Below, one piece after another: positions 3,635-32,533 of a stretch of DNA of 44,318 nucleotides. Under the pieces are notes generated by a model. It saw only the letters and a program-made list of their open reading frames with translations. It was not told the origin of the DNA and did not search any database. A program made the position numbers and the translations under genes. How positions within the stretch are numbered: the first letter of the stretch is position 1; every line of letters starts with the position of its first letter. Source of the DNA: Candidatus Methylacidiphilales bacterium (GTDB lineage Bacteria > Verrucomicrobiota > Verrucomicrobiia > Methylacidiphilales > JANWVL01); contig JANWVL010000052.1 of the NCBI GenBank assembly GCA_025056655.1, positions 1 through 44,318 of the forward strand, read 5' to 3'.

Positions 3635-4258
3635 TTAAGAGATCAAAAAATACTCCACTGCTTGTTCTTTTCTATTGTTATCTTCAGAAGATAATTTGCT
3701 GTAATAATAATCAAAGAATAGTTGATGAGTTTTTACATCGATGGGGTAAATACCTTCTTGATAATAATCATGGCATAAAACATGATTGATATAGCTCAAT
3801 ATTCCCATCGGTATATCCTTATTTTCTTCTATTGTTATTATCAACCCGGCTGATTTGTCATACATTTTTATCACAATAGGCAATTGGCTTTCTTCTGCTG
3901 GGGTTTTAGGTGTAATGTGGATAAAACTATACTGCTTCCAACTATTATAAGCCAACCAACTGGTGATTTCTTCTACAGATATATAGCAAGGATGATTATC
4001 ATCACCTTGATTCGTTCTTGAAACGTAATCATACATAAATTTTTGACACATATTATGAGGAATGTTAATTGGTATTATATTCAAATTCTTTTCGTAAAAA
4101 TCTTTTAAAATAGCGTAAGCGGATTCCATGGGACCTTGTCCTACGTAACCCGCCCCAAACCCTGTTAGTGAATATTGCTGCGATGGATAGAGTGGTTGAT
4201 TTTCTGGAGAAAGAATCTCTACTTGATCACCTGATCTATGAATAGTATATGTTGACAT
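3635..4258 (-). CDS. DUF6166-like protein
   Basis: This is a 207-residue soluble protein. Residues about 33-54 (GFGAGYVGQGPMESAYAILK) match the GYxGxGPxxxAxxIL signature near the start of DUF6166 proteins, a family of unknown function often found near mobile elements. A second feature is an acidic helical segment around DYVSRTNQGDDNH. The remainder is longer than a typical DUF6166 domain and is not recognised. The start is well supported: a TATAAT on the minus strand (4265-4270) lies six bases upstream of the ATG, with no Shine-Dalgarno sequence, so the mRNA is probably leaderless. It is divergent from the helical-repeat gene at 4704. Confidence 0.65.
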   Translation of the reverse strand: MSTYTIHRSGDQVEILSPENQPLYPSQQYSLTGFGAGYVGQGPMESAYAILKDFYEKNLNIIPINIPHNMCQKFMYDYVSRTNQGDDNHPCYISVEEITSWLAYNSWKQYSFIHITPKTPAEESQLPIVIKMYDKSAGLIITIEENKDIPMGILSYINHVLCHDYYQEGIYPIDVKTHQLFFDYYYSKLSSEDNNRKEQAVEYFLIS

Positions 4259-4264
4259 GATCTC

Positions 4265-4270
4265 ATTATA
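4265..4270 (-). promoter_or_regulatory. -10 hexamer for a leaderless transcript
   Basis: TATAAT reads on the minus strand, with six bases between its last T and the ATG at 4258. The transcription start would fall at or next to the start codon. Confidence 0.6.
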
Positions 4271-4690
4271 AACTGCAGTTACTGACTGGATGGGTTAAAT
4301 TTTTAGACATAAGCGTCACCTTGATTATTGTATGATTTGATTGTTGAGATCTAACCGGCAGGTTTTGCTACTCCATCGAAATATTTATTAAAGATACAGA
4401 AGCCATTAGTCAAATTGTTTTTCTTATGTCTTATCACATGCTAACGATAGGCGAATAATCATTTTCCGAAAATTTATGTTATTTTTAAATATCATCTATA
4501 ATACAAGCTATGGAGTTAAGCATATAATTCATAATCTTAAAGAGCGATGATCTTTCCACACATCTTCGATCTTCTTCAGGATAGGAGTTAGTAAGATATC
4601 ACGACACAAATGTATGGTACTCTTCAATAGATTTCAGCTATGTTGCGTAGGCCTTTCTGTTCAACATATTTATTTAGCAGTGTTTTGTAT

Positions 4691-4696
4691 TATAAT
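4691..4696 (+). promoter_or_regulatory. -10 hexamer for a leaderless transcript
   Basis: A TATAAT lies seven bases before the ATG at 4704. There is no room for a Shine-Dalgarno sequence between the expected transcription start and the start codon. Confidence 0.6.
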
Positions 4697-4703
4697 ATAA
4701 AAT

Positions 4704-6689
4704 ATGAGTTATGAAGACACCACATCTCAAGTTGAAAATGGACTATTATCACAGCTAAAAAATGCACCTTTATTAGCTTTGAGAAAAAAAGCAGCTGAGT
4801 TAATCAGCAGTTATAAAATAAAAAAGATAAATAAAGATGTAGTAGATATTTTTTACGAAACAGATGATGAGGAAATAAGGAGAATAATTGCTCGTGTTCT
4901 TTTAGAATCAGATAAAGACAAAGCGATCAGCGTTGTTGTAGATTATATAAACAAAAATAAAGGTGTTAATAACGCTGAATATATAAAGCTCATAGTAATG
5001 TATGGAGGCCAAAGTATCACGAGTATCCTCGCTGATATCTTATTTGATTTGACCCACTCTAAAGAAACTAGATCTGCTTGTGCTACGATAATAGGAGAAA
5101 ATCGTTTTTACCACCTTAGCCATCTACTCAGAAAAGGTTTAATTCATGAGGAATACGGAATACAAGAATGCTGCGCTCATGCTTTAGCTCTTCTTAACGA
5201 TAAACAATCATGCGCCGCTTTGATTTTCACAATAAATAACACAGATGATTTTACTATTAAAAAAAGTTGTTTGCAGGCTTTATTTGCAATTGACCCATTA
5301 TTAGCTACATACAATTCACTTTCATGGATTAAAAAATCCGATAATGATCAATGGACAGCAACGCTTTTAATGTACTTAGGAATAAATTACCAACCTAACT
5401 TTATGCTTTATTTTGAAATGTTCGCAAAACTATTAAACCATCAAAATACTGATATAAGAACATATGCAGCTGTACTACTCGGCCGTATGATAAACGAAAA
5501 GACCGCCGAAACATTTTTAGACAAAATGAAGACAGAGAAGAGTTATACCGTAAACTTAGAATTAGCTAAAGCCCTCATTGATTCAGGCTATGGCGATAAG
5601 TTGATAAGACTAATGGAAAGTGATTTGTTTAATAGGGATGCTATCTTGGCGTGTATTAGAGCGATGCAAATCTGCGAATATCAGGCTGGATTCAATTTAC
5701 TTAAGCATATGATATACAATAGCAAAGATTTAGATATATTATTTTGTGCTATAGAAGCTGCACCAAAACTAAATACGATGATGGGCATAAATATTATCAC
5801 CAACTTACTCGAATCAATAATAAATAAGCGCCCCTTTGATTTCGATGATCAATCCATTAACTTAATTTTGAATAAGCTCTTGTCAACTATTGGATTATAC
5901 GGAGACATTCAACATCTGGAAATACTACTTAATATACTAGAAATGCCATTACACGATAAACATAAAATAATATGCGCACGTTCTATAAATGATATTTTGA
6001 TGAGGAATAAAGACACTATAATGAAAACCAACGAAAAAAATGAGCAACACAACGAGAGAATTTACAAAGAAAAGGCACGCATGTTTATCATGCGTCTAGA
6101 TAGAATATTGACAGAATGTCCACCGTCTATACTTATTGAAGCAATGGATGTGATGAAAACATTTCACATAGGTATATCGGCATTGTTTAATGTTCTGTCT
6201 CTACATGAAAAGGATGATTCAACGCGCGATTTATTACTAAATTTATCAAACCAACAGGTATATATTTTAATAGACGCTTTGATCAAGAAATTTGAACATT
6301 CTGAGAACTTGAAATTAAGGAAGACATGTGGAGAGGTTTTGTCTAAATATATCGATGATAAAACAGTGAGAAGAGTCTTCATAGATTTATCTTTTCATGA
6401 AACCGATTTCGAGATTAAACTACTCTCTTTAAGAGCACTAATCTCTGGAGGGTGCCTTGAAGTTATACCAATATTGCATGCGCAGATTCTTCGTGAAGAT
6501 GATCCGGAAAGATTGTCTCAATACGCAGAAGTTATATTAAAGGAAGGTGTTTATAATATTGAAAATATCTACCAACGTCTAGTTCAATCAGATATTAGCA
6601 ATGATTTAAAAATAGGACTAAATAGAATACTGAATGAAAGAAGGATAATGATTAAACAAAACGATCATTCGCAAAATATTTTACCGTGA
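4704..6689 (+). CDS. Large HEAT-like helical-repeat protein
   Basis: This is a 661-residue, Ile/Lys/Asn-rich protein with no signal peptide or membrane span. The whole length is made of roughly 30-40-residue paired helices typical of HEAT/armadillo solenoids, for example LRKKAAELISSYKIKKINKD, then VVDIFYETDDEEIRRIIARV. Later repeats include TRSACATIIGENRFYHLSHL and DIRTYAAVLLGRM. HEAT solenoids usually act as scaffolds for protein binding, and some bind DNA; nothing here shows a catalytic site. The start is fixed by the -10 box seven bases upstream. The gene stands alone, with long empty spacers on both sides. Two other long solenoid proteins occur at 9908 and 18015. The function is unknown; the solenoid fold is inferred from the pattern. 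Confidence 0.75.
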   Translation: MSYEDTTSQVENGLLSQLKNAPLLALRKKAAELISSYKIKKINKDVVDIFYETDDEEIRRIIARVLLESDKDKAISVVVDYINKNKGVNNAEYIKLIVMYGGQSITSILADILFDLTHSKETRSACATIIGENRFYHLSHLLRKGLIHEEYGIQECCAHALALLNDKQSCAALIFTINNTDDFTIKKSCLQALFAIDPLLATYNSLSWIKKSDNDQWTATLLMYLGINYQPNFMLYFEMFAKLLNHQNTDIRTYAAVLLGRMINEKTAETFLDKMKTEKSYTVNLELAKALIDSGYGDKLIRLMESDLFNRDAILACIRAMQICEYQAGFNLLKHMIYNSKDLDILFCAIEAAPKLNTMMGINIITNLLESIINKRPFDFDDQSINLILNKLLSTIGLYGDIQHLEILLNILEMPLHDKHKIICARSINDILMRNKDTIMKTNEKNEQHNERIYKEKARMFIMRLDRILTECPPSILIEAMDVMKTFHIGISALFNVLSLHEKDDSTRDLLLNLSNQQVYILIDALIKKFEHSENLKLRKTCGEVLSKYIDDKTVRRVFIDLSFHETDFEIKLLSLRALISGGCLEVIPILHAQILREDDPERLSQYAEVILKEGVYNIENIYQRLVQSDISNDLKIGLNRILNERRIMIKQNDHSQNILP

Positions 6690-7452: not shown

Positions 7453-8832
7453 CTACAAACTTAACGTGGCATGCAACGCCTCACCTAGGCTGCGCACCGG
7501 CAATAGTTGCAGACCATCTGGAGGGCGTTCTACCTTGCGCGCTGTTTTTGGCAAGATACAACGCGTGAAGCCAAGCTTGGCCGCTTCGTTAATCCGCTGG
7601 TTAAGCTGGCCGACGCTACGTACCTCGCCGCTTAGTCCCACTTCGCCCACTACAACGATATCGGCTGGGACAGGCACGCCTTTATGGGCGCTTGCGATAG
7701 CAACTGCAGCGGCTAGGTCAGCGGCTGGTTCGTCAATCGTTAATCCCCCCACAACATTCACAAATACGTCTTGGTCATGGAGGCGAATGCCGACGCGTTT
7801 GCCCAATACCGAGATCAGCAGAAATAATCGGTTGTAGTCGAAGCCGTTAGCAGTACGGCGCGGCATAGGGTTCTGAGTGGGGCTGGTCAATGCCTGCACT
7901 TCGACCAGCAATGGACGAGTGCCTTCCATTGTCACGGCAACTGCGCTGCCGGGCGTGTACAGAAGACGTTCGGCTAAGAAAGCCTCGCTGGGGTTGATCA
8001 CCTCGCGCATACCGTCACCGGTCATCTCGAACACGCCGACTTCGCTAGTGGCGCCAAAGCGATTCTTCATGCTGCGCAAAATGCGGAAGGACTGGAAACG
8101 ATCACCTTCCAATTGCAGCACGGTGTCTACAATGTGTTCAAGCACCTTCGGTCCAGCCAGATTGCCTTCTTTGGTCACGTGGCCGACGATGAACACGGCC
8201 ACATCATTGGACTTGGCAATCGCCTGCAAACGTTGTGCGCTTTCTCGCACCTGGGTAATTGTGCCCGGAGAAGATGGCAAGCTGTCCATATACATGGTTT
8301 GGATCGAGTCCACGATGCATAGCTTTGGTCGCAGCGCTTCAATAGCATGAATTACGTGGTCAAGGTTAGTCTCGGAGAGCAGGTAGAGATCGCTCTGGCC
8401 TACGCCTAGGCGTTCAGCGCGCATCTTGATCTGCTGGGAGCTTTCTTCGCCGCTTACGTAGAGTGTTGTCCCGATATGTCTGGCGACGAGTACAGCGCTT
8501 TGGAGTAGTAACGTACTCTTGCCGATGCCCGGGTCACCACCGATCAGTACAAGCGAACCTGGCACGATGCCGCCGCCTAACACACGGTTGAATTCACTGA
8601 TTGGCAAAGGCAGACGCTGGGTCGCGTCAGCGCGGATATCGCACAGCTTCTGTGGTGTAGTGCTGAGCGTCGGCGCGCGCCGGTCGACGTTCGGCTGCGC
8701 CCCGACGACTTCCTCAATCAACGTGTTCCATTCGCCGCATGCTGGACACTTACCTACCCAGCGTGCTTGTGTACAGCCGCACTTATTACAAATATACTGT
8801 GTCCTTAGCTTGGGCATAATCGTTTTTGGCAT
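7453..8832 (-). CDS. radA: DNA repair protein RadA
   Basis: RadA is a RecA-like ATPase that speeds branch migration and processing of recombination intermediates. The 459-residue product has all family landmarks. The N-terminal zinc finger reads YICNKCGC, then GKCPACGEWN. The Walker A reads GGDPGIGKSTLLLQ (about residue 100), and the Walker B region KLCIVDSIQTM. The RadA-specific KNRFG motif is present (MKNRFGATSEVGVFEM). The C-terminal Lon-like domain ends RSLGEALHATLSL. I chose the ATG at 8832 (MPKTIMPKLRTQYICNKCG); a TTG ten codons upstream is in frame but less likely, and an ATG at 8817 would also be family-typical. The gene is GC-richer than the AT-rich sequence around it, so it looks like a conserved chromosomal gene stranded in accessory DNA. 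It appears to be monocistronic. Confidence 0.97.
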   Translation of the reverse strand: MPKTIMPKLRTQYICNKCGCTQARWVGKCPACGEWNTLIEEVVGAQPNVDRRAPTLSTTPQKLCDIRADATQRLPLPISEFNRVLGGGIVPGSLVLIGGDPGIGKSTLLLQSAVLVARHIGTTLYVSGEESSQQIKMRAERLGVGQSDLYLLSETNLDHVIHAIEALRPKLCIVDSIQTMYMDSLPSSPGTITQVRESAQRLQAIAKSNDVAVFIVGHVTKEGNLAGPKVLEHIVDTVLQLEGDRFQSFRILRSMKNRFGATSEVGVFEMTGDGMREVINPSEAFLAERLLYTPGSAVAVTMEGTRPLLVEVQALTSPTQNPMPRRTANGFDYNRLFLLISVLGKRVGIRLHDQDVFVNVVGGLTIDEPAADLAAAVAIASAHKGVPVPADIVVVGEVGLSGEVRSVGQLNQRINEAAKLGFTRCILPKTARKVERPPDGLQLLPVRSLGEALHATLSL

Positions 8833-9907
8833 AGCGATCAGTTTATCACTTATATCAGGCAAGGGTAAATAAAATTGGGATGTAGGCTATGCAAGATCTA
8901 CCTATGCAACCCTATCAATTTAAAACGATTATTGTTAGACAATCGAAACTAAGACAATATATCAATAGTATATTAAATATAAATACGGATCGTGTGTTAT
9001 TTGTCTTGATTATCAAGGCCTGTCTCGTGTAGATAAAATCAGACGAAGAACGCGGTTATCATATCACTAAGGCCTTTTTTCTTTGATGCATATCAACCAA
9101 AATACTTTCTTAGTTATGCTGATGTTGTCACAAAGATATACTTCCTTAAAGATAGTTGGTTATATCAGCGTAACACAAATGACGTAACAAATATGATCAT
9201 CTTCTTAAACTAATGCTAAAGTAGATGATTCAGCAAGTATAATCTAGATACATCCCCTGCGAGTCGTTTAACTTCATCGCAACCGAATATACTCTAGAAT
9301 TTATATACCGAGACAAAAAGAATTGCCGGAAGAAGTATAAAACGACATATTAATTAAATCTGTTGATGCAATACTGGGATACCTATGGCTTTCGATCCTT
9401 TGATCCTTTTTATTTCAATAATATCATTGCGCCATGATATTATTTATTACCTCATCATGCAGTGTGTACCAGTGTTTGATTTGTGCTATAAGTCATACAT
9501 TCAATTCTTAAAAATCTTAGCGTGTTGATGATTATGATGGTGAGTTAATCATCAGTTATTGGAATATGAAATAGAAGGATAAAAGCACATTTACCAGCAT
9601 ATACCCCATCGAGTAAGTTGTAGATTACTAATTTAAGCCATAAATTATTGATAATAATGCGAGGATTTGGTTATCAATATACATATTATGATTTTTGCGG
9701 TATATTTCATATTGGAAGATTAAATGATCGCTTCAGTTGTAAGTTAAAGCAAAAATGATATGCTCTGCATAGGTTATCTGATTGATGTCGCGATTATTTT
9801 GCTTTTTTGCTACAGCTTCGCTGAAATTTCTTGAGTGCGTCGTATATCGAATGATACCCATTTACATATCTAATCCCACACGGATCTTCAGTTATAATAT
9901 GAAATAT
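8833..9907. other. Long AT-rich spacer
   Basis: Over 1 kb with no protein-like frame on either strand. Short GC-richer patches (around 9030-9085 and 9255-9300) may be eroded coding sequence. In the last 130 bp a frame joined to the next gene is open, but its translation has no similarity in character to the protein, and the promoter at 9893 lies inside it. Confidence 0.55.
9893..9898 (+). promoter_or_regulatory. -10 hexamer that decides the start of the next gene
   Basis: TATAAT lies nine bases before the ATG at 9908 and directly abuts another ATG at 9899. A transcript starting 6-8 bases after the hexamer could only use 9908. This argues against the longer frame that opens at 9782. Confidence 0.5.
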
Positions 9908-11746
9908 ATGCCTTGCTTTAACTTAATAAACCGCATTTTATCTCGCAGTGCATATGAGGATTTGCCCGATGGAATATACAAAATTAAAGATGATTTGATA
10001 AATGAGATTTTGTCAAATAAAGAAGAGGCTTTCTTTGTGCTTAGTAATTTATTATCAAATGATGAAAATCTGCCTCTTATCTATAAAGCCTTGATTTTGA
10101 TTTATATAGGCGCGACAAAGATGGATGAAGCTGAGAAGGTTATTGATGAATACAAATACTCTAAAGATTCTTTTATAGCCTATGCGGCAAATTTAGCATG
10201 GTATTATATGAATAGAGATGAAGATTCTTATAATTACCTAATTGCTAAATTACATGTCGTGTGTAAAAACAATAATCACGATTTATTACTATTATTTAAA
10301 AACGTCTTCCTACTTGATCGAGAAATAAAATTAGCTGTAGCTAATTTAATTGAAAATATATGTAAAATTGATCAATATCCTTTAATTGATGAATGCATTC
10401 AATTATTAGAAGAAATGGAATGTTCTGAACATATATGCAGGATTCTGCTGTATGTATTAGATCATAAAAACGCCGAGAATATCATCATATTTAAAAGTCA
10501 TCCCCTCCTTTGCCATGGAATATTTAAAGTATTAAAAAACATGCCGCAGTGGGAAAAAGTTAAATTAGCCGAGAGTATTAGTCGTATAGATTATTTCAAT
10601 CTTTGTGAATTTTTGTTGGATGCATATAATGAGAGTGATGAAGTGCTAAGACTTACTATCCTTAAAAATACATCCTCGATCATTAACAAAATTCGTAAAT
10701 CATGTATTAACTGTATTGATTATGATAAACAAGAACATAACATTTTTACTTTACAAAGATGTGGCGAAATATCTGAGGTTGTATTTAAACACATCGAAAG
10801 AGATGTCAAGGATAAATTGCATTCAAAGTCATTAATCGGTTTATGTGGTGGAGATAGCGCAGTAAAAAAACTAAGAGTTTTATTAACAAACAAAAAGAAA
10901 TTGAACAGTTCTTTTATAAAGGCAATTCTTGATACTCTAGATAAAAATCTAGTGAGTGATTTCGTTGAAAACGCATTAAATCATGACGTTTCTTTGTTGA
11001 ATAATATTCCGGATGATGATTGTTATATATTTTTAATGAGAGAAGGATTAATAGACATGATGCTAGATTATTTCGTAAAATCACCAAAGGTTAGAAATAG
11101 AACTCTTTTCTGTATTTTAATGAAGTATTTCATGCATAAAAAAGACTGTCAAGCGATGAAAATGATAGTTGATCATTCGTATAATATTAATATAATAAAT
11201 TGTAATAGTATTCACAAGGATATATTGGAAATTGGATCGGATTTTGCGTGGTATTATTTTATGAAAATCATTGAGAGGGATAATTTGAAGAATTTCTGTT
11301 TAAGTTTGAATAATTTTATATGTCTTTATACACCTTTCTTAATTTCTCAAGAGAACAGGAAGATACTAGAATTGTTGGATCATGTCATTGACCTAAAAAT
11401 AGATAAGAAAAAATTATTTCTGGCTATTTTATTGTGCAACAACGATTTGTCTTTCGAGCTTATTTATAAATTCTCACAACATTTCGATTTTTTATTAGAT
11501 GACATAAATTTGGTGAACTGCCATATATTAAACAAGGAAAAGATAATAAAAAAATTGTGCGATTTTTTAATAAAAGAAAAAGACGAGGGTAAAATATTAA
11601 GTATAATTAAAATAACGGAAATGTTGGATAAGAATATAAAATATAATTTGATAAAACAGAGGGATTTATCCTTCTATGTAATAAAATTAATAGATATGAT
11701 GATGTATGATAAAAGATACAATTCAGACGAGACTTTATTGTTATAA
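9908..11746 (+). CDS. Large helical-repeat protein (solenoid family A)
   Basis: The protein is 612 residues from the ATG at 9908; the frame is open upstream to 9782, but the -10 box at 9893 favours the shorter form. It is very rich in Leu, Ile, Lys and Asn, with no signal peptide or membrane span. The body is all-helical with 30-40-residue paired helices (for example LINEILSNKEEAFFVLSNLL and LIYKALILIYIGATKMDEA). The first 100 residues align with the start of the protein at 18015: YKALILIYIGATKMDEAEKV against IKAQALIYLALINSDKLKDV, followed by matching YxxS, AA and NRxE positions. I infer that the two are paralogues. No catalytic motif is visible and the function is unknown. The gene is solitary. 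Confidence 0.75.
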   Translation: MPCFNLINRILSRSAYEDLPDGIYKIKDDLINEILSNKEEAFFVLSNLLSNDENLPLIYKALILIYIGATKMDEAEKVIDEYKYSKDSFIAYAANLAWYYMNRDEDSYNYLIAKLHVVCKNNNHDLLLLFKNVFLLDREIKLAVANLIENICKIDQYPLIDECIQLLEEMECSEHICRILLYVLDHKNAENIIIFKSHPLLCHGIFKVLKNMPQWEKVKLAESISRIDYFNLCEFLLDAYNESDEVLRLTILKNTSSIINKIRKSCINCIDYDKQEHNIFTLQRCGEISEVVFKHIERDVKDKLHSKSLIGLCGGDSAVKKLRVLLTNKKKLNSSFIKAILDTLDKNLVSDFVENALNHDVSLLNNIPDDDCYIFLMREGLIDMMLDYFVKSPKVRNRTLFCILMKYFMHKKDCQAMKMIVDHSYNINIINCNSIHKDILEIGSDFAWYYFMKIIERDNLKNFCLSLNNFICLYTPFLISQENRKILELLDHVIDLKIDKKKLFLAILLCNNDLSFELIYKFSQHFDFLLDDINLVNCHILNKEKIIKKLCDFLIKEKDEGKILSIIKITEMLDKNIKYNLIKQRDLSFYVIKLIDMMMYDKRYNSDETLLL

Positions 11747-12192: not shown

Positions 12193-12393
12193 CTATTTCA
12201 TTAAAGCCCCCTCTTTATTTATTTTACTATATTTATTAACTAATGAATTTTTTAGAGGGGTGATTTTATTTAAAAGATCTTCTGGAATGCCATTTTCTGT
12301 GCAATTCTTAGCCAGATCAATTGCTTCTTCATAGCGCCCATTTTTAAGAAGATCGTCCATAAGCTCTTCGTCTAATGGGATATACTTCCTCAT
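12193..12393 (-). CDS. Small acidic/basic helical protein, 66 residues
   Basis: This is a short protein beginning MRKYIPLDEELMDDLLKNG, followed by RYEEAIDLAKNCTENGIPED, and ending in a Lys/Asn-rich tail. The central part looks like a single TPR-like helical hairpin (NGRYEEAIDLA). The reading frame is supported by a TATAAT six bases upstream of the ATG on the minus strand, the same leaderless layout as at larger genes. I do not recognise a family. Small size and isolation would fit an antitoxin-like or adaptor protein, but no toxin partner is adjacent. Confidence 0.6.
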   Translation of the reverse strand: MRKYIPLDEELMDDLLKNGRYEEAIDLAKNCTENGIPEDLLNKITPLKNSLVNKYSKINKEGALMK

Positions 12394-12399: not shown

Positions 12400-12405
12400 A
12401 TTATA
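12400..12405 (-). promoter_or_regulatory. -10 hexamer for a leaderless transcript
   Basis: TATAAT on the minus strand is separated from the ATG at 12393 by six bases. Confidence 0.6.
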
Positions 12406-16903: not shown

Positions 16904-16919
16904 GAATTTATTAAAAAGG

Positions 16920-20069: not shown

Positions 20070-20345
20070 ACGCGCTTTTTTACTCCCGACGAATGTGAAC
20101 TGCTCATCGAGTTTGACGACAGTATCGTAGTCGGTTGGGGGGCTGTGGGATAGGGAGGGCCAAGGCATGGTCACCGGCGTAATTGATATACAGACTGCGC
20201 CCGACGCTTCGGAGGCCGTAGCTATCTGGATACATCTCAAAAGATTAGTGCGGGATTCTAAGCGATTATCTGATTGTGTTAGTCTGAGAGATGATATGAT
20301 GATGACAGGCCTTGCGCAGCTTGCGCTAGCTTCTGCAGTGTTTTA
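20070..20345 (-). mobile_element. Decayed IS1-like element, copy b (fragment)
   Basis: On the minus strand this matches copy a in order: the AVEMYLDG region, then MRCIQIATASEASGAVCISI in a shifted frame, then PTDYDTVVKLDEQFTFVGSK (the IS1 DELxTFVGxK region). Compared with copy a there is an internal deletion of about 30 bp and many transitions. Only the middle third of the element is left. The rest on both sides has been lost or has drifted beyond recognition. Confidence 0.7.
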
Positions 20346-20971: not shown

Positions 20972-21844
20972 ATGAAATCGTTATGGCCTATTGGAACTAA
21001 CAAACGTTCTCATCCAAATTATAAGGCTGTTATTAGCCGATGGGTACCTTATCATGATCGTCAAATATTAGCTCAGGATATTAATCCTGATCACAATAAT
21101 GTCGATGCAATTGCATTACGTGCTATTCGTTATGCAAAGGCAGTAGAAATTGAAGATGAAGACATAAAGTCCGCATTCTTTCATACTCTAGAATATCTAG
21201 AGCATGTATATGGATACCATAGAATAAAGGATGCGGAAGAGATTGTTTTCGCTGCCTTAACGATGATTCGTAAGATCAATGATCAGGATATTGCATATTT
21301 ACCAAAACAATACGGACATGCTTATCTTGATATATTTATCGGTGCATTAATTGAGCAAGAAGCTAATATTAAGGGTGTATATAACAATCAACCTGTGCAA
21401 ATAAATATACGTAGAAAAAGTGCTTCTGTTGAACTTTGTGATGCTTTGTATGCAGCTAGAGCAATGCAAAAGTTTAAATTGTCGGAAGAGGAAGCTAAAA
21501 TGATCGCAGTTGTACATGTTGATATGCGTTTACAAGCTATGGAAGAGATCGGTAAACAAATCCTGTATCAATCTGAAACTTTAGCCCATTTTGTAGACGA
21601 AATAGAGAAGTTGAAACTAAAAGATTTCCAATTCCAGCAAGCGCTATTTGTGATGACTTATAAGTCCAGATATTTACCCAGTGGTATTCTTGAGATAGAT
21701 GATACTCATAAAGAGCACATTTTACCAGAAAATAAACAAAACCCTGAAAGTAAGGGCGAGGATATTTATGATAGCAATAATATCAATGTTGAAGATGATG
21801 TGATGGTTGATTTATATAAGTTAATATCTGAAGATAATTCATAA
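20972..21844 (+). CDS. Unrecognised 290-residue protein
   Basis: The protein starts MKSLWPIGTNKRSHPNYK and is soluble and mostly helical. It has a Tyr/His-rich first third (LEYLEHVYGYHRIKDAEEIV), a helical centre (ELCDALYAARAMQKFKLSEE) and an acidic, probably disordered C-terminal 50 residues rich in Glu, Asp and Asn. I do not recognise a family. The start is set by the extended -10 element six bases upstream and the absence of a ribosome-binding site. A strong AT-only hairpin terminator follows 13 bases after the stop, so this is a single-gene transcription unit. Its long conserved-looking frame in AT-rich DNA suggests it is under selection. Confidence 0.7.
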   Translation: MKSLWPIGTNKRSHPNYKAVISRWVPYHDRQILAQDINPDHNNVDAIALRAIRYAKAVEIEDEDIKSAFFHTLEYLEHVYGYHRIKDAEEIVFAALTMIRKINDQDIAYLPKQYGHAYLDIFIGALIEQEANIKGVYNNQPVQINIRRKSASVELCDALYAARAMQKFKLSEEEAKMIAVVHVDMRLQAMEEIGKQILYQSETLAHFVDEIEKLKLKDFQFQQALFVMTYKSRYLPSGILEIDDTHKEHILPENKQNPESKGEDIYDSNNINVEDDVMVDLYKLISEDNS

Positions 21845-22587: not shown

Positions 22588-23793
22588 TCAATCCATGTAT
22601 AAACCCTTGTTTATATAATCATCTTTATCTATCACGACGTAAAGCTCGTTTAAACTGATATTCAAGAGACTGGCAGCCTCACGATAGAGGAAAAACCCAG
22701 TCTTAACCCCGTGGATAATACTTTGAGTAAATGAAACCCCGTAAGTATAAATCAAATAATCATAAATATCGTTATGATGTTCTATATTAAAAGTGGTTTG
22801 GTTTTCTGATGAAGTGGTATGTACGATATCTTGCAAAAAGACTTGTCTTTGTCTTTCGTCTATAATTCCCAGCGCGTTCAATTTATTCACAACAAGTATT
22901 GAATCTACGCAGAGAGATTTGGAAATATTTTTTATCCTGGCAATTATATCATTGGATTTATTTTCGTTCCATGTCTTAATGATAAAATTTTCTGGCAATA
23001 GGATCTCTGATGCAATTTTATGGAAAATATCATTATTGCCGTTTGAACCAATTATGCTACTTTTACCTAACCATAGATAAGCTAAAGCACTAACAAGCGC
23101 ATAGGTCTTTTTTGCGAAGCTTTCCAAATTATTTATAAAAATAAAAGGGGCATATAAATCAGACACGACAAAATCAAATGGCTTGTCTTTTGATAAATTC
23201 CAATTATGATGACCTAGTACATTGGAGCTTACAATCACAAAGATGTTGTTGTTTTCCAATATATTACGCAATATTTTGAAATACTGTTCCGCATTATTTA
23301 TGTTAGCGCTTGGCATATTTGGTAAACTGAGACGTTGACGGATAGACATTGCCACTTTCTTATAATCATCACTCTCATTAGAAATACCGATAAAATCCAA
23401 AGGTTGATAACCTTCTTGCCTTCTATAATCGCTTAGCCAGCCACATTTATATAAAACATCGTTCATCAAATATTCCAGATCAGGGTTATCAAGATACTGG
23501 CCACATGATGTATCATTACAAAAATACTCTATGCTTGAATAAATTGTTGATGAGGGATCATCTATGAAAAGATAGCCAATTGGAATATGTAAAATATCCG
23601 CTAATTGACACGCTTGTTTCCAAGTTGACACACCACCATTTTTTTCCCATGTTTTTAAATCTGATTCCGATATGGCTAACTTTTGAGCTAATTCGCCTTC
23701 AGATAATCCAGCACGCCGACATGCCCAGCGAACCGTATTAAAGTTAACAGGAACGCTGCAATGGCTTATATTTTTATCTCCATCAACATCCAT
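22588..23793 (-). CDS. XRE-type regulator with an ImmA/IrrE-like domain lacking the zinc-protease motif
   Basis: This 401-residue protein has an N-terminal XRE helix-turn-helix (about residues 18-75: AQKLAISESDLKTWEKNGG, then ADILHIPIGYLFIDDP). The rest follows the XRE-ImmA/IrrE layout. IFINNLESFAKKTYAL leads into SALAYLWLG, where active members have HELAHLWLG. HKIASEILLPENFI then matches the ANxFAxxxLmP helix, and a C-terminal segment (FFLYREAASLLNISLNEL) is typical of the family. The HExxH zinc site is replaced (SALAY), so protease activity is not expected. Active relatives cleave repressors in mobile elements. This one may keep only DNA binding or sensing. The frame is uninterrupted and has its own leaderless-type promoter, which argues against simple decay. 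Confidence 0.75.
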   Translation of the reverse strand: MDVDGDKNISHCSVPVNFNTVRWACRRAGLSEGELAQKLAISESDLKTWEKNGGVSTWKQACQLADILHIPIGYLFIDDPSSTIYSSIEYFCNDTSCGQYLDNPDLEYLMNDVLYKCGWLSDYRRQEGYQPLDFIGISNESDDYKKVAMSIRQRLSLPNMPSANINNAEQYFKILRNILENNNIFVIVSSNVLGHHNWNLSKDKPFDFVVSDLYAPFIFINNLESFAKKTYALVSALAYLWLGKSSIIGSNGNNDIFHKIASEILLPENFIIKTWNENKSNDIIARIKNISKSLCVDSILVVNKLNALGIIDERQRQVFLQDIVHTTSSENQTTFNIEHHNDIYDYLIYTYGVSFTQSIIHGVKTGFFLYREAASLLNISLNELYVVIDKDDYINKGLYMD

Positions 23794-23802: not shown

Positions 23803-23808
23803 ATTATA
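23803..23808 (-). promoter_or_regulatory. -10 hexamer for a leaderless transcript
   Basis: TATAAT on the minus strand lies nine bases before the ATG at 23793, with no ribosome-binding site between. Confidence 0.55.
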
Positions 23809-24014: not shown

Positions 24015-24619
24015 AAGTCCGCAGAACTTGTTTCAACCGAGTAGGTCTGCGACTTGCTCAGCGTAGTGAAAGATGCCTCCCCGTTGTTAATCTAAAGCAG
24101 CATACTCAATGAAGCCGTCGGTGCAGTACTAAAATGCCTGTAGCTCTGTATCTACCATCGCCTGCACCACAGCCTCATCGCTAAATAGAGTATCTACCAG
24201 ATCATCATGCAGTGTGTTCTGCACTTGACATTCTTGATCAGACAGAAGCATTTTTACTCTCAACGAATTTGAACAGCTCATCGAGCTAGACGACAGTATC
24301 GTCGTCGTTTTGGGACTGTGGGATGGTGCAGCCAAGGCACGTTCACCGGCGCACTTGACCCAGTTGGCTACCAATTGCGCACTTGATATGCAGATTGCGC
24401 CCGATGCATCTGAAGCTGTGGCCATCTAGATACATCTCGACAGCTTGGCGCGGGATTCTAGGTGGGTAGCCGATTGGGTTGGGCTGAGGGGTGAAATGAC
24501 GATTGCAGGCCTTGCACAGGTAGCGCTGGCTGCTGCTGTGATTCTTGACTTGTTTGAAAACCGATTTGCTTATGTATCTTGGGACACTTCATGTATCTAA
24601 TTTTATTTACTCCCGAAGA
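24015..24619 (-). mobile_element. Broken IS1-like element, copy c
   Basis: The minus strand matches copy a at about 85-90 percent by eye from GGGAGTAAATAAAATTAGAT (left end, near 24615) through the zinc-finger/HTH region. The match continues through the TVV-LDEL region and on to SQTYSVE (about 24040). Stops and frameshifts occur throughout, and an extra segment around 24195-24245 is absent from copy a. The left end stops at or just before the start codon of the small gene at 24620, so the element may have landed immediately upstream of it. The stretch 23809-24014 holds no gene. Confidence 0.7.
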
Positions 24620-25244: not shown

Positions 25245-25274
25245 TTTACTCTACAGATACTACTATGCTAGAAT
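25245..25274 (+). promoter_or_regulatory. Promoter of the VirB4-like gene
   Basis: TTTACT (25245-25250), an 18-bp spacer and TAGAAT (25269-25274). The -10 box ends six bases before the ATG at 25281. This is the one leaderless-type promoter in the window where a plausible -35 box is also visible. Confidence 0.6.
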
Positions 25275-25280
25275 AAAGCC

Positions 25281-27125
25281 ATGATTAACACAATCCAGCA
25301 AATTTTGAAGCGCAGAGGACAAGATGTTAAGATACCTGAAGACATAAAAATAAAAGAGGAATCTCCACCGTTTAAGATAGGTGATGATGAGTTGAGCGAT
25401 AAAATTGCGCCGCCTTTTGTCTACATTGAAGATGATAAGATTAATATCGGTGGTGCATACTATCGCCTTTTTTATGTAGCAGAATGGCCACCAGTCGTCT
25501 CTCGTGACTTGTGGCATCGCATACTCCAGTTCAGCGGAAATATCTATATCGCACTCCATCATACCGTTATCAGTCCTGATATAGCTTCTCAAGCGCTAGC
25601 CCGGGAAGCGACCGCGCTTCGCACACAACGTAACCTGTTGGCCATTCAAAAGAGAGATCCAAACGAAGCCGATGCTCTTAGACTTAATCGCATTACTGAT
25701 GCGCGAATAAAGGTTGTTTTACATGGCGAACCTATTTTTATGTTGACTGCAGTCATTGGTATAGCTGCTCCTACAGTGGAGATGCTTGAAAAATATAGCA
25801 CTATGATCAAACAACTGCTTCAGTATGCAGGAATCAACTCTTTTTATGTGGCTCAATTTGAGCAGGATAAAGCCTTCACCAGCATATTGCCATTGGGCGT
25901 AAATCTGATGGCCACCCATAGAAGAAATATCGATGCCGATACTGCGGTATCCATGTTCCCTATGATCTCCGAAGAGAACGTGGTAAAGAAAGGATTTTTC
26001 TACGGTGTTGATGTGGCTAATAAAGCAGCTATATTTGTTAACCCGATGGCTTTAGACAATCCTAATTCGATTATCATTGGCATACCCGGATCAGGCAAAT
26101 CTTTATTTCTCAAAGACCTCATCGAACAGGCTATTCTTAGAAAAATGAAGGTTTTTGTTATAGATATCGAGGACGAATATCGAAAATTATGTGATGACCT
26201 TGGTGGTGCATATCTCGATATGGCGAGCAATAGTCAGTATAAGATTAATGTGATGGAGCCGGCTTATAACGATCCCGAAGGTCTACACGGCGCGATGAAA
26301 GATTTTCTAACCTGGGTTGAATCTATACAAGGTATTCCATTAGACGCATTCCAACGAGAGGCGTTTCATAAAGCTTATTTCTTGGCTTTTAATAGCAAGG
26401 GAATATATCATGATAAACCTGAGACGTTGAGAAAAGCGCCTCCTAAACTATCAGATTTTTATGATGCGCTGGAGACTGTTGCTAAAGTCCATCGTACCAA
26501 GAATCCTGCCGTGGAAAAAGCAGCACGTCATCTCCAAAGCATTTTATATGCTTATACTTATGGCGATACTAATAAAAGCTATGACTGCGACTCAAATATC
26601 GATGTGGAAACTTATTCTCTTGTAGTTTTCGGACTTAAAAATCTCAAGCGCGGTGACTTGAGGGCCAGAATGCAGCAAATTCTGAGTTGGACTTTAGTTC
26701 AGGTTTTAAATAACACAGAAATTCCTAAACTAGAAATTGTAGACGAGGCATGGTTCTTGCTCGATTCTGATTCTACGGCCGCAGCTTTAGCTGAACGCGC
26801 TCGTCGCTTCCGCAAAAAAAATGCCTCATTGTGGCTAGCTACCCAGAACGTAGTTGATTTCGCTGCTAATCGGCACGCTTCAACTATCGTTTCAATTGCC
26901 GACACGCGGCTGTATTTTAAGCAAACTCCAATTAGTGTCGAGCAAATCGGGCAGATCGGGAAATTAAGCGCTGCTGAGAAAGCAGTCTTACCAACTCTCG
27001 AACCGGGCAAGTTCCTCCTTCATGCAGGCAATATTAGAAGGCTTGTATACAAGCCTTATCCACAGTCAAGGCATAAACTTTATACAACTCGTCCATCAGA
27101 TCATTATCCGAATAGTCCAGTTTAG
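25281..27125 (+). CDS. VirB4/TraC-family type IV secretion ATPase
   Basis: This 614-residue protein follows the VirB4/TraC family, the cytoplasmic ATPase that powers assembly and transport in conjugative type IV secretion systems. The N-terminal 240 residues are the family's helical/alpha-beta domain (RDLWHRILQFSGNIYIALHH, later GVNLMATHRRNIDADTA). The RecA-like ATPase domain has Walker A IGIPGSGKSLFLKDLI (about residue 267). A VFVIDIEDEYRKLCDDLGG segment follows, then Walker B LEIVDEAWFLLDSD (about residue 487). A later WLATQNVVDFA is typical of the family. No membrane segment is present. It lies immediately after the DnaA-box array and 29 bp before a membrane-anchored glycosidase-like gene, probably in one operon. 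No VirD4 coupling protein or relaxase is seen nearby. Confidence 0.9.
   Translation: MINTIQQILKRRGQDVKIPEDIKIKEESPPFKIGDDELSDKIAPPFVYIEDDKINIGGAYYRLFYVAEWPPVVSRDLWHRILQFSGNIYIALHHTVISPDIASQALAREATALRTQRNLLAIQKRDPNEADALRLNRITDARIKVVLHGEPIFMLTAVIGIAAPTVEMLEKYSTMIKQLLQYAGINSFYVAQFEQDKAFTSILPLGVNLMATHRRNIDADTAVSMFPMISEENVVKKGFFYGVDVANKAAIFVNPMALDNPNSIIIGIPGSGKSLFLKDLIEQAILRKMKVFVIDIEDEYRKLCDDLGGAYLDMASNSQYKINVMEPAYNDPEGLHGAMKDFLTWVESIQGIPLDAFQREAFHKAYFLAFNSKGIYHDKPETLRKAPPKLSDFYDALETVAKVHRTKNPAVEKAARHLQSILYAYTYGDTNKSYDCDSNIDVETYSLVVFGLKNLKRGDLRARMQQILSWTLVQVLNNTEIPKLEIVDEAWFLLDSDSTAAALAERARRFRKKNASLWLATQNVVDFAANRHASTIVSIADTRLYFKQTPISVEQIGQIGKLSAAEKAVLPTLEPGKFLLHAGNIRRLVYKPYPQSRHKLYTTRPSDHYPNSPV
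27038..27064. other. Perfect 20-bp palindrome with an adjoining DnaA box inside the VirB4-like gene
   Basis: AAGGCTTGTATACAAGCCTT (27038-27057) is perfectly self-complementary, and a perfect TTATCCACA (27056-27064) overlaps its end. Both are within the last 30 codons of the coding sequence, where the protein is not strongly constrained. It may be a protein-binding site connected with the origin array 1.9 kb upstream. Confidence 0.4.
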
Positions 27126-27154: not shown

Positions 27155-28555
27155 ATGCGCAAACTAAAAACCAAAAAAATCATTTTCCTCCTTGCAGTTG
27201 TATTATCAATCATTCTTTTCTTGTATTTAATGATAAGAGATAATCGTAACGACAAACTGTCAACAATAGATGCGAATTCATCAATGATAAATGAAGATAA
27301 AATCACAGCTGTACAACCAACTATAAAGATTGACTCGACAAATACACCAAGCACAAATAAGGAAATACATGGCATAACGTCTGAAGCCCAAGATCAAACA
27401 GAAATACCTTATTCGATGCTCCTGCCAGGTTTACCGGAAGAGCCTCCACCTACGTCTTCCCCTGATGAAATCATACCTCCAGATGACTTTATCCCCGGAT
27501 CATATTTCGAGATTAAATATGAACAGTTGATGGATGATCTAACCGTTATGCACGAATATGGTATTACACACACATGGCCAAGCTTTCCGCAAATCACTGA
27601 ATTCGGCATTCAGATCGATGGATGTCACAATCCTGTTTGGCCTGCCGTTGAGACAGCTAAGAAAGTAGGATTGATATGGATAAAACAACAAGTTAGATGG
27701 GGCGACATTGAATATCTTGACGGAAATATTAGAAGAGTACGCTGGCAATGTTTAGACGATGTAGCCGAAGCAACATCAGCGTATGGTATGAAACTAATGT
27801 TTTCGATAACAACAAGCCCAAAATATCTAAGGCCTTCTTATGCCAATACAGTACTTGGTCCGCCAAGAGATCTAGGCGCATGGCAACAATTTTTATCCGC
27901 CCTGCTTAAGCGTTATAAAGGCAAGATCAATGCAGTTGAAATCTGGAATGAACCTAACTTAGACGCCGAATGGGAGGAGGGCGTAAATCCTTACCAGTAT
28001 CTGGACTTACTGCGCATCTCTTATACGATTATCCGTCGTTCTGATCCGAACATTATAGTTATATCAGGTGGTATGGCACCACTTGATCAAAGTTCATATC
28101 CAAGTTATATAAGTGATGTAGAGTATTTAAAAAATATTTCTCACGAGGGAGGATTTCTATGGTTTGATTGTGTAGGGTATCACGCTAATGGACCAGATGG
28201 CATAGGCTATGCAGATCAGGTTATATCCAGATTTGCCGAGAATATATTTTATAAACAAGATAGCCGACTCAGACGCCCTTTATGTATAACAGAATTTTCA
28301 TTTTCTTTGCCAATAAATGGCCAAACCCCTAAGAACTTTGCATGGGCAGCATCACATACAGAAGAACAACAAGCTGAAAATATGATTAAATGGATGCGGA
28401 TAATTAAACGATCAGGTCTTGTTGCTATAGCCATCGTCTTTAATTTAAATTACTCGGATGGTCTTACGCCTAACTCAATAGCAGCTTTGCAAAGACAAGA
28501 TCTTCGTGGTCTAACATTACAGGCAATACAAAATGAATTAGCAGCCAATAAATAA
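27155..28555 (+). CDS. Membrane-anchored glycoside hydrolase-like protein (clan GH-A)
   Basis: This 466-residue protein starts with a basic stretch and one hydrophobic segment (IIFLLAVVLSIILFLYLMI), a signal anchor. A Thr/Ser/Pro-rich linker of about 90 residues follows (LPEEPPPTSSPDE and nearby). The catalytic-type TIM barrel spans about residues 145-465. The clan GH-A acid/base signature is clear (AVEIWNEPNLDAEW, Glu near residue 266), and the usual nucleophile strand appears as LCITEFSFSLP (Glu near residue 379). WGDIEYLDG and MKLMFSITTSP resemble the early strands in GH39/GH5-like enzymes. It would act outside the cytoplasmic membrane on a polysaccharide or glycan. Location behind the VirB4-like gene suggests envelope remodelling for a secretion channel. 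The substrate cannot be read from the sequence. Confidence 0.8.
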   Translation: MRKLKTKKIIFLLAVVLSIILFLYLMIRDNRNDKLSTIDANSSMINEDKITAVQPTIKIDSTNTPSTNKEIHGITSEAQDQTEIPYSMLLPGLPEEPPPTSSPDEIIPPDDFIPGSYFEIKYEQLMDDLTVMHEYGITHTWPSFPQITEFGIQIDGCHNPVWPAVETAKKVGLIWIKQQVRWGDIEYLDGNIRRVRWQCLDDVAEATSAYGMKLMFSITTSPKYLRPSYANTVLGPPRDLGAWQQFLSALLKRYKGKINAVEIWNEPNLDAEWEEGVNPYQYLDLLRISYTIIRRSDPNIIVISGGMAPLDQSSYPSYISDVEYLKNISHEGGFLWFDCVGYHANGPDGIGYADQVISRFAENIFYKQDSRLRRPLCITEFSFSLPINGQTPKNFAWAASHTEEQQAENMIKWMRIIKRSGLVAIAIVFNLNYSDGLTPNSIAALQRQDLRGLTLQAIQNELAANK

Positions 28556-29075: not shown

Positions 29076-30197
29076 TCAAATCGCCAATGCCTCTAAAACG
29101 TTCTTCTGCCATAACTCACCTAAGCTATATTCTGCAAGCCATGGCACAATTTTATTTTGATCTATGCGACGGATCATGGATATACCATGGTCAAGTTCTA
29201 CGAGTAAAATATCCTCATGTTCAAACTGATCAATAAGCGTAGCTGATTGAGTAGATAAAACAACTTTCGTGCGGTCAGTTACAGTTACGCTATGAATCAT
29301 CTCAGCCAGCAAAACAATAGCATATGGATGTAATCCTAGGTCAGCGTTATCTAGGACAATTAAAGAAGGTAACATTTCACGTGGTTGCAAAAACAATGTA
29401 GTCAAGAAAATAAATCGGAGCATGTTATCAGAAAGCATATTTGCGTTGAAGATGAAATCTGTATTATTTTCCTTCCACATCAATTCAACATGGTTAAAGA
29501 TGAATGGATGTCTTCGCAGGAAAAAATCACTGAAGGATGGATTCACCATCCGTATAGTTTGAACAATGCTGTCGTAGTTCTTCGGATATTTATTTCTTAG
29601 CATGTCGAGATAAGCGGGTAAATTGCTCGCGTCAGGCGCCAAACAGAGATTATCATCAAGGTTGCAAGGCTGTTTTGCGCGCGCTAATGCACTACTGTCG
29701 TTAAAATTATAAATATGCCAACTACGTATAGCGTCAAGAATTTGACGAGGTATATCAGAAATGTTTGCCCAGTGCGGTAGATGACTTTCCGTCGTGATAT
29801 TATCATGTTCACAATAAACGATTGGGTCAGAAAATTTGCTGCTATCGCGAACATAGATCGTTTCATTAACCAATTTCATGCTCTTTTCGGCTGGAACTAA
29901 CTTGCAATGATAAGCAGAGGATAAATTGTTATCATGCTTAAACCATATTGTAATATTTATTAGATCACTTTTCATATGACCGTAGTGCAGTATCGCGCCT
30001 GAGCCATTTGATTTATCTATATATGCTTGAAATTCCTGATTGACTATACTTTTAATCATACCGAAAAGCCTTTGAATATTAGATTTTCCGGCACCGTTGG
30101 CTCCAATTAGCACATTCACTTGTTTTATTGGCAGATCTAACGTCCTAAAGGATTTGTAATTCGTTGCGATAATTCTTTCGAGAATTATACTTGACAT
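29076..30197 (-). CDS. AAA-family ATPase (RecF/OLD-like, AAA_21 type) with an altered Walker B
   Basis: This 373-residue ATPase is of the SMC/RecF-like, single-gene type often found in accessory DNA. Walker A is LIGANGAGKSNIQRLFGMI (about residues 30-48), directly after the typical front NYKSFRTLDLPI. The C-terminal half has PSLIVLDNADLGLHPYAIVL (about residue 275-295), where relatives read IDEPELGLHP. The STQSATLIDQFEHEDILLVE segment matches the usual end. The catalytic Glu after the Walker B Asp is Asn here, so hydrolysis may be impaired. The start has a good ribosome-binding site (AAGAGGGA) and a TGCTATAAT 27 bases upstream, so unlike its neighbours it has a leader. Related proteins occur in anti-phage defence loci, but no partner nuclease is adjacent. 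Confidence 0.85.
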   Translation of the reverse strand: MSSIILERIIATNYKSFRTLDLPIKQVNVLIGANGAGKSNIQRLFGMIKSIVNQEFQAYIDKSNGSGAILHYGHMKSDLINITIWFKHDNNLSSAYHCKLVPAEKSMKLVNETIYVRDSSKFSDPIVYCEHDNITTESHLPHWANISDIPRQILDAIRSWHIYNFNDSSALARAKQPCNLDDNLCLAPDASNLPAYLDMLRNKYPKNYDSIVQTIRMVNPSFSDFFLRRHPFIFNHVELMWKENNTDFIFNANMLSDNMLRFIFLTTLFLQPREMLPSLIVLDNADLGLHPYAIVLLAEMIHSVTVTDRTKVVLSTQSATLIDQFEHEDILLVELDHGISMIRRIDQNKIVPWLAEYSLGELWQKNVLEALAI

Positions 30198-30626: not shown

Positions 30627-30632
30627 TATAAT
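30627..30632 (+). promoter_or_regulatory. Extended -10 element for a leaderless transcript
   Basis: TG-T-TATAAT, with the hexamer ending six bases before the ATG at 30639. Confidence 0.6.
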
Positions 30633-30638
30633 GTTGGC

Positions 30639-31475
30639 ATGAGATGGGTAGTTTTTTTGGTAATTCCCTGGATTTGTTTAGCAACTATTTTTACATACGC
30701 CATTTTGATACTGGGTAGCAGTGTAGTTTCGTCTAGTGTTTACTTTCTCGGTATGCGTACTCCGCCAATTATGAATAAAGCTGCTCCTTTCTTTGGTGTA
30801 ACATATCACGAGGTGGGTGATGCTATGAAACAGTGGGTGTTGGATGGGCGACATCCGGCTGTGACGGCTGGCGGAAATGATGACAATTATGACCCTCTTG
30901 CAGACGAAAATATGTTATATTTCTTGCCGAACGGCAATGTAGGTTATCGGCCAATTCCAGGTGCACGACCATTGCCAAACAGAAAACGCTGGTTCGAAAG
31001 TCCTATCGATCCAAATGCAGCTGTACAAGGAGGATTAGTGCGTTTTCCCATCAACCAAGCTTACGTTAGGATCACGAGTAAATATGGTGACCGGAGAACT
31101 GATACAGATTTCCACAATGGAATTGACATATCTATGTATTCAGGCACACCGCTTAGGCCTTTTGCAGGGGGTTTATCGCAAGTTGTCGCAGTTGGATACA
31201 TGGAAGGGGGATATGGCCATTACGTTGTGCTCTCGCATGGTTCGGGGAATGATCGCGTGCTTACGCTTTATGCACATCTTTCAAGTGTACACGTTCAACC
31301 AGGCCAAGTGATCGGAGAAAATGATACTATCGGTTTATCCGGGAATACGGGTAATTCTACAGGGCCTCATCTTCACTTCGAGGTTATTCGTATGGGCGAA
31401 AATGGTATCCCGGTCAATATTTCACCATGTGAATTGCCAAGTTTTGCTGAGTCTGCACCTGAGGGTGCATGTTAA
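30639..31475 (+). CDS. Membrane-anchored M23-family peptidase
   Basis: The protein is 278 residues from the ATG at 30639. An ATG seven codons upstream is in frame, but the -10 box lies between the two, so 30639 is preferred. An N-terminal hydrophobic segment (VVFLVIPWICLATIFTYAIL) anchors or exports it. The C-terminal half is an LytM/M23 zinc endopeptidase: DFHNGIDISMYSGTPL (first His about residue 159, with Asp four residues later), LYAHLS, and GPHLHFEVIR (final His pair about residues 245-247). All metal and catalytic positions are present. Such enzymes cut peptidoglycan peptide bridges and often accompany type IV secretion systems. With the VirB4-like gene and the glycosidase-like gene it may open the wall for a channel. 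The gene is followed by 33 bp and a convergent gene. Confidence 0.9.
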   Translation: MRWVVFLVIPWICLATIFTYAILILGSSVVSSSVYFLGMRTPPIMNKAAPFFGVTYHEVGDAMKQWVLDGRHPAVTAGGNDDNYDPLADENMLYFLPNGNVGYRPIPGARPLPNRKRWFESPIDPNAAVQGGLVRFPINQAYVRITSKYGDRRTDTDFHNGIDISMYSGTPLRPFAGGLSQVVAVGYMEGGYGHYVVLSHGSGNDRVLTLYAHLSSVHVQPGQVIGENDTIGLSGNTGNSTGPHLHFEVIRMGENGIPVNISPCELPSFAESAPEGAC

Positions 31476-31508
31476 ATTAACACTTTTTCAACGATGATTA
31501 TAAAAAAT

Positions 31509-31943
31509 CTATTTTATATTCTCGATCATAAAGGCGATAGGGATTCCACTTGGAGTAAGGAGATGCTGCATAGGAGGAATATAGTAAGCCTTACGTATCA
31601 TATCTGGCAAAAGGCCTTCTTTGACACAGAAACTTATTTTTTCGGCTAGATTGGACCACTCTGATTCATCCTCAGGTTGTGTAATAGCATCCTCGAAGAC
31701 CTTTTCAAAAATTGCGTCAATAACTTGTCTGTAATTTATTTTAACATCACACCCATCGATATGTTTTTCATTTTCAGGGTCTAAAAATAATATATTAATC
31801 ATCGGCTCATCTTTAATCATTGCCAAATTAATTGGTACAAACTGAAGCGTGGTTGAACTTGTATTCGAAATCATTGCACGAATCATGTCAAGTGTATCTG
31901 TGACGAGAGGTATGTCCTCTTTTATCGTAATAATTCCAGGCAT
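31509..31943 (-). CDS. Unrecognised 144-residue protein, second gene of an operon
   Basis: A longer frame opens at 31976, but it overlaps the upstream gene. The ATG at 31943 (MPGIITIKEDIPLVTDTLDM) has a strong ribosome-binding site, GGTGAGGAG, overlapping the upstream stop codon, and is clearly better. The protein is soluble and acidic in the middle (FLDPENEKHIDGCDVKINYR, then ITQPEDESEWSNLAEK). No family is recognised. The seven-base gap to the preceding membrane-protein gene shows translational coupling, so the two probably work together. Confidence 0.7.
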   Translation of the reverse strand: MPGIITIKEDIPLVTDTLDMIRAMISNTSSTTLQFVPINLAMIKDEPMINILFLDPENEKHIDGCDVKINYRQVIDAIFEKVFEDAITQPEDESEWSNLAEKISFCVKEGLLPDMIRKAYYIPPMQHLLTPSGIPIAFMIENIK

Positions 31944-31950
31944 AAATACG

Positions 31951-32520
31951 TTACTCCTCACCCGTGAAAACTTCATTATATTTTAGATAATTTAGCGAAG
32001 TTTCTCGCCCAAATGGGCCAACATGTAGTTTTAACCTTGTGGTAAGAACTGTGAAATCATAATTATCTATTTTACCATGGGATAGAGTCGGTGATGGATC
32101 ACCGATCTCAGGCCATAATTGGCCAAGGCCTTGCTTCCCAAACTCCATCCTATTATTCTTAAATATATCGTAAGTTATCGTCGCGTTGTACTTTATTTCA
32201 GCATATTCGTCTGAATTTAAATACATTTTATTCAATGTATCCGTAATTCCACCTACAAATAGAGAATAGCACCACATAAAATTCTGGATATTCAATGCTA
32301 GCATTAAGATATATACTAGGATAAGCACTGGCTCTAAGATGTAGGTAGATCCTGATCTTCTCCCAGATGATTTTTTATTACTCGGTTTTGATTGTATAGT
32401 TGGCGGAAGATCTTTGGATCTTTGTTCTTCCGAATGCTCTATGATTTCAATTCTTGGCGGCCAAATTTCACTAATCTTTGATATCAGTCTGACCACATGG
32501 AAGTGATTTTTATCTCTCAT
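31951..32520 (-). CDS. Single-pass membrane protein, 189 residues
   Basis: The first 60 residues are charged and probably cytoplasmic (IEIIEHSEEQRSKDLPP, then SNKKSSGRRSGS). One transmembrane helix follows (ILEPVLILVYILMLALNI, about residues 61-80). The remaining 105 residues would be extracytoplasmic (TLNKMYLNSDEYAEIKYN, later KLHVGPFGRETSLNYLKY). The layout vaguely resembles TadE-like pilus assembly proteins or bitopic secretion-system components, but I cannot assign a family. TACAAT on the minus strand seven bases before the ATG suggests a leaderless mRNA. It is the first gene of a two-gene operon. Confidence 0.7.
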   Translation of the reverse strand: MRDKNHFHVVRLISKISEIWPPRIEIIEHSEEQRSKDLPPTIQSKPSNKKSSGRRSGSTYILEPVLILVYILMLALNIQNFMWCYSLFVGGITDTLNKMYLNSDEYAEIKYNATITYDIFKNNRMEFGKQGLGQLWPEIGDPSPTLSHGKIDNYDFTVLTTRLKLHVGPFGRETSLNYLKYNEVFTGEE

Positions 32521-32527
32521 AGTACTT

Positions 32528-32533
32528 ATTGTA
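32528..32533 (-). promoter_or_regulatory. -10 hexamer for a leaderless transcript
   Basis: TACAAT on the minus strand, seven bases before the ATG at 32520. Confidence 0.5.

Follow-up and report, generated by a model that had tools for sequence, protein, structure and literature searches.

Candidate leaderless promoters at AT-rich gene starts of a putative separate replicon in a Methylacidiphilales bin

In Deinococcus radiodurans and the Deinococcus-Thermus group, a -10 motif lies 6–7 bp before the open reading frame (ORF) in about a third of the genes, which are leaderless (PMC12340547). In the survey of Zheng et al. (2011), genes termed TA-led carry a TA-like signal about 12 bp upstream of the start (counted from the first T) and are promoter-proximal; the signal takes the form TAtaaT in medium-GC genomes including Chloroflexi, for which an average of 4.7% was given in 4 of 12 genomes (PMC3160421). 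The giant phage AR9 has two multisubunit RNA polymerases, with late promoters of the AACA type and untranslated regions of 26–491 nt (PMC5312081). A leaderless -10 spacing of 6–7 nt is already known (PMC12340547, PMC3160421); the setting in which it is found here is unusual.

The DNA analysed (hereafter, the window) is a whole contig of 44,318 nucleotides, C52, from a bin named as a Candidatus Methylacidiphilales bacterium, which comprises 2.44 Mb in 178 contigs and is 96% complete with 3.1% contamination. Nine gene starts in the window very probably represent leaderless promoters of the sigma-70 type, on a putative AT-rich replicon, distinct from a normal-GC genome without the signal. The arrangement is like the Deinococcus -10 motif in its spacing and has a similar frequency, but the Deinococcus consensus is mostly TACACT/TANNNT and experimentally tested, whereas here it is TATAAT, in the AT-rich genes of one replicon, read from sequence alone (PMC12340547). 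The Deinococcus-type motif needs no -35 element; a weak, about twofold excess of TTGACA-like -35 sites is seen here (20 of 68 candidate starts on AT-rich contigs, versus 10 expected). Spacing and promoter-proximal position are also those of the TA-led genes, although about a third of the ORFs of the replicon are involved, versus 4.7% in Chloroflexi (PMC3160421); as in that class, the box is fixed at 6–7 nt above chance, Shine-Dalgarno (SD) sequences are almost always lacking, and the starts are AUG and promoter-proximal. Like AR9, the replicon encodes extra beta and beta' subunits; unlike AR9, it has a sigma-70 factor, conjugation genes and predicted leaderless promoters (PMC5312081).

The nine hexamers were first pointed out in a sequence-only reading, which gave their distances to the ATG as 6, 7, 9, 6, 6, 9, 6, 6 and 7 nt; all proved correct when the sequence was re-read, and the absence of an SD sequence was confirmed at every start. 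On the forward strand, TATAAT at 4691–4696 ends 7 nt before ATG 4704 of a candidate leaderless ORF of 661 aa with HEAT repeats (4704–6689), and TATAAT at 9893–9898 ends 9 nt before ATG 9908 of a 612 aa candidate (9908–11746) that has no Pfam match and belongs to a paralogous family of the AT-rich replicon. The three other forward candidates have an extended -10 element ending 6 nt before the ATG: TGC-TATAAT (20960–20965) at a 290 aa ORF of no family (20972–21844), TGC-TAGAAT (25269–25274) at a 614 aa TraG/VirB4-like ATPase of type IV secretion (25281–27125), and TGT-TATAAT (30627–30632) at a 278 aa M23 peptidase (30639–31475). On the reverse strand, TATAAT at 4265–4270 ends 6 nt before the ATG of a 207 aa DUF6166 candidate (3635–4258), TATAAT at 12400–12405 ends 6 nt before ATG 12393 of a short 66 aa candidate (12193–12393), TATAAT at 23803–23808 ends 9 nt before ATG 23793 of a 401 aa candidate (22588–23793), and TGC-TACAAT at 32528–32533, again an extended -10, ends 7 nt before ATG 32520 of a 189 aa candidate (31951–32520); the last three belong to no family. 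The TG extension had been noted at only two sites (20972 and 30639), and is in fact present at four (also 25281 and 32520).

Genes proposed as a contrast generally have the expected ribosome-binding sites, correctly assigned at 42731 (reverse strand), 31943 (reverse strand) and 18015. The last of these, a leadered control at 18015–19787 on the forward strand, has the SD sequence AGGTG, which is kept in a paralogue (L047:1937-3733). The AAA ATPase (29076–30197, reverse strand) is a more qualified case: an SD-like AGAGGG is indeed present, and it sits between the start and a TGC-TATAAT box 26 nt upstream, so that a short leader would be expected on this mRNA. The ORF at 27155–28555 (forward strand) lies within an operon, 30 nt 3' of the 25281 gene, and its start has no nearby -10 element, as expected for a downstream gene.

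The outcome of comparison with shuffled sequence depends on which ATGs are counted. The pattern TATAAT-N6..9-ATG occurs nine times at any ATG in the window versus 4.2 expected, with nine or more in 7 of 100 shuffles, and individual sites of this kind can be due to chance in such AT-rich DNA. Among the 13 AT-rich gene starts of the window, nine have a hexamer 6–9 nt upstream, far above dinucleotide shuffles of the upstream regions (mean 0.6, maximum 4 in 2000 trials), and seven still do when the first ATG is chosen blindly. The hexamer spacing alone is therefore unremarkable in the AT-rich DNA of the window and remarkable at gene starts, where chance is excluded statistically.

Statistics for the bin were collected from a sample of 1.3 Mb of the 2.44 Mb, with contigs below 3 kb read as N. 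GC content in the sample is bimodal, with an AT-rich set near 0.30–0.40 and a core near 0.48. Starts were called mechanically, with a blind variant in which the first ATG was taken. Among 165 AT-rich ORFs, a hexamer ends 6 nt before the first ATG in 29 and 7 nt before it in 16, against a background of about 1.9 at each other position; the combined count of 45 compares with a mean of 3.5 and a maximum of 9 in shuffled upstream regions. In-frame ATGs near the starts give a similar picture (of 290, 35 have the hexamer at 6 nt and 26 at 7 nt, over a background of 3.9), whereas GTG and TTG starts subjected to the same test in the AT-rich set show no peak at 6–7 nt. Neither do the normal-GC ORFs of the same bin, with 3 and 0 of 538 at the two positions. 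The sharp peak anticipated by the sequence-only reading is thus found, in the AT-rich ORFs only, and its proposal of consistency in this lineage gives way to a signal that belongs to a separate AT-rich replicon. Over the whole bin, TATAAT-N6-ATG has 52 matches versus 15 for the reversed control; the relaxed form TANNNT-N6-ATG was too unspecific over whole genomes to give a clear leaderless signal.

Leaderless-type starts account for 68 of 174 AT-rich ORFs (39%). The background, measured at internal in-frame and out-of-frame ATGs, is only 5–6% per ATG, which at 1.7 ATGs per ORF amounts to about 9%; the corrected estimate is therefore about one third. Leaderless starts had been suggested to be the norm for the AT-rich genes, which holds within the window (9 of 13) but overstates the case for the AT-rich set overall. 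An SD sequence is also present in one of the 68 candidates and in 34 further ORFs; 72 ORFs (about 40%) have neither this nor a close -10, in part because starts were called mechanically. Candidates are concentrated at promoter-proximal ORFs (47 of 104, or 45%) as compared with ORFs that follow a co-directional ORF within 50 nt (4 of 31; Fisher p = 0.001). An extended TGn motif accompanies 12 of the 68, a threefold enrichment over the 4 expected.

Conservation among paralogues bears on the choice of start codon. In a paralogous family with roughly 31–48% identity, four of five members have the box 7 nt ahead of the ATG. Across paralogues the box is kept at 7–8 nt and the aligned part of the proteins starts at the first Met or next to it, while two paralogues of the SD type retain the SD in place of a close -10. 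The homologue of the 9908 gene at L033:597-2444 (40% identity) has an identical box 8 nt before its start, and its first Met aligns with 9908, supporting this position over 9785.

Bacterial RNA polymerase starts transcription some 7 nt past the -10 hexamer. For a hexamer that ends 6–7 nt before the ATG, the mRNA would therefore start on the A or one base before it, and such a spacing is conventionally taken to mean a leaderless mRNA (PMC3160421, PMC12340547). The proposed mechanism involves promoters of the sigma-70 type that often carry the TG extension and have a weak -35 at best. Their -10 elements end 6–9 nt before the ATG, which would place the first base of the transcript on the A of the AUG or 1–3 nt ahead of it. 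The ribosome would then start on the leaderless mRNA without SD pairing, binding directly at the 5' AUG, and roughly a third of AT-rich ORFs, or near half of the promoter-proximal ones, may use this mode. Leaderless transcription is strongly supported as the best reading by the spacing peak, its restriction to ATG, the exclusion of SD sequences, operon avoidance, the extended -10 and the paralogues, all of which uphold the original proposal in substance if not in its scope; the actual 5' ends, and translation by such direct binding of the ribosome, are what we infer from it.

Ordinary promoters could produce the same boxes if translation in fact began at later start codons, preceded by a normal 5' leader. 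The mechanical calling of starts and the presence of several possible ATGs in a few ORFs, such as 9908, leave some room for this explanation, but in several paralogue sets the similarity between homologues begins with the very first residue behind the close -10, and the peak, seen at ATG only, matches the canonical discriminator length exactly. With an SD sequence at the candidate start in just one of 68, we regard downstream starts as improbable. Still more doubtful, indeed barely credible, is the proposal that the boxes are not promoters at all, and arise by chance or as a consequence of AT-rich composition, or act as A/U-rich enhancers of translation (S1 binding sites, for instance). It agrees with the lack of significant enrichment over all ATGs of the window; against it are the 45 boxes where shuffled gene starts yield 3.5, the 5–6% seen at internal and out-of-frame ATGs, and the association of the boxes with an extended TG and a weak -35, and an enhancer would not need a fixed spacing of 6–7 nt.

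The signal might also be a property of the whole lineage for which the bin is named, as the window and the bin share one name and TATAAT-N6-ATG is mildly in excess in some relatives from that order. The 538 normal-GC ORFs without a peak argue against this, as do a repeat that the AT-rich contigs share and the core lacks and the duplication of RpoB, RpoC and sigma; a lineage-wide trait is accordingly very improbable, if a little less so than chance or enhancers. Leaderless promoters on the AT-rich contigs are the preferred reading, and these contigs are, as judged from their repeat and gene content, probably a separate replicon or genome within the bin. They are marked by a degenerate IS-like repeat (16920–17640 in the window, also given as 16900–17640; strand not assigned), found in 26 sampled contigs, of which 25 have a GC content of at most 0.45 and one, of 3.7 kb, has 0.50; no other core contig in the sample has it. 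This GC-rich element also occurs in the window at 20092–20364 and 24266–24613, and there are tens of copies on AT-rich contigs.

In addition to the core rpoBC on contig C154, full-size RpoC and RpoB are encoded a second time in the AT-rich set, which also has a further small RpoC (954 aa) and small RpoB (823 aa). Of the two extra beta/beta' sets, the full-size one is very divergent and the small one is phage-like; the genes lie at L137:889-4728 and 7865-10336, L048:11767-16056 and L034:12519-15383. The replicon's own sigma factor is a full RpoD-like sigma-70 with regions 2, 3 and 4 (L047:11860-13263, an AT-rich contig), and two smaller sigma factors (L045:859-1635 and L047:18617-19429) themselves have leaderless-type starts. 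DnaE, DnaN and DnaG are also encoded, together with UvrD helicases, a Tad-type secretion ATPase, PrgI and the conjugation ATPases TraG/VirB4 and TrwB-like; a DNA polymerase III alpha gene (L046:6593-9865) has a leaderless-type start, with TAAAAT 6 nt before the ATG. In this fragmented assembly, the only L14 gene of the bin lies on contig C178, and AT-rich contigs have none. Searches with approximate query sequences for E. coli ribosomal proteins and EF-Tu gave no match in the sampled part and are therefore uninformative about either replicon. A search for RecA across 20 genomes recovered it in 19, but not in the bin (G000). A PHROGs scan of 37 long proteins returned one terminase-like match and no capsid, in the presence of conjugation genes. 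In IMG/VR, no relatives were found of the VirB4-like protein of the window or of the small RpoB, and the small RpoC had only distant matches, in viral contigs.

The affiliation of the replicon with Chloroflexota is indicated only by the ranking of best hits and a 16S fragment. The best matches of its RpoB are Chloroflexota RpoBs, at 40–46% identity, and in a tree the branch of this protein is extreme in length, at about 3 changes per site, and no placement was obtained for it. A partial 16S gene at the end of a contig carrying the shared repeat (L076:1-829) is 96% identical to that of one Chloroflexota genome and 76% identical to the bin's own 16S; the bin holds rRNA of two lineages. A 96% match in 16S against 46% in RpoB would be unexpected for one chromosome; we therefore infer either that the replicon is an element hosted by a Chloroflexota-like organism or that the 16S contig is not part of it. 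A more specific possibility, tentative and on balance unlikely, is that of a large extrachromosomal element equipped for its own transcription and replication, whose polymerase would transcribe leaderlessly beside a host or bin partner with leadered genes; the machinery would consist of the highly divergent full-length RpoB, RpoC and sigma-70, the second minimal beta/beta' pair, and DnaE, DnaN and DnaG. If this is true, it would become possible to test whether a private polymerase is linked to a leaderless style of promoter.

Over 251 Chloroflexota genomes, TATAAT-N6-ATG gave 3662 matches versus 1257 for the control. Of the 66 genomes with at least 20 matches, 22 surpass the control by a factor of five (76:4 and 69:2 are examples); several enriched genomes are among the nearer 16S matches, and the three nearest have few matches. 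A very strong excess over the reversed control is seen in genomes G079, G105, G113, G121 and G277. These counts suggest that leaderless genes are widespread in parts of Chloroflexota, and the 15-base pattern would extend the leaderless arrangement to many members of a phylum for which the earlier survey gave a few per cent. In the bin itself, the known pattern is extended to AT-rich genes, with a strong leaderless architecture in one replicon and none in its companion genome, a contrast visible from the DNA alone; leaderless usage can therefore help to separate mixed replicons.

Some further features of the window may be mentioned. AT-rich and GC-rich stretches are joined on this contig, where a GC-rich gene for a giant protein with DUF11 and FG-GAP repeats (36759–42731) is adjoined by that of an NB-ARC/TPR protein (33878–36694). 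At 4497–4530, 5' of the 4704 gene, a TATAAT lies 7 nt before the ATG of a five-codon frame (MELSI, then a stop). Near the beginning of the contig, an 87-bp direct repeat (244–330 and 363–449) is 99% identical between its two copies.
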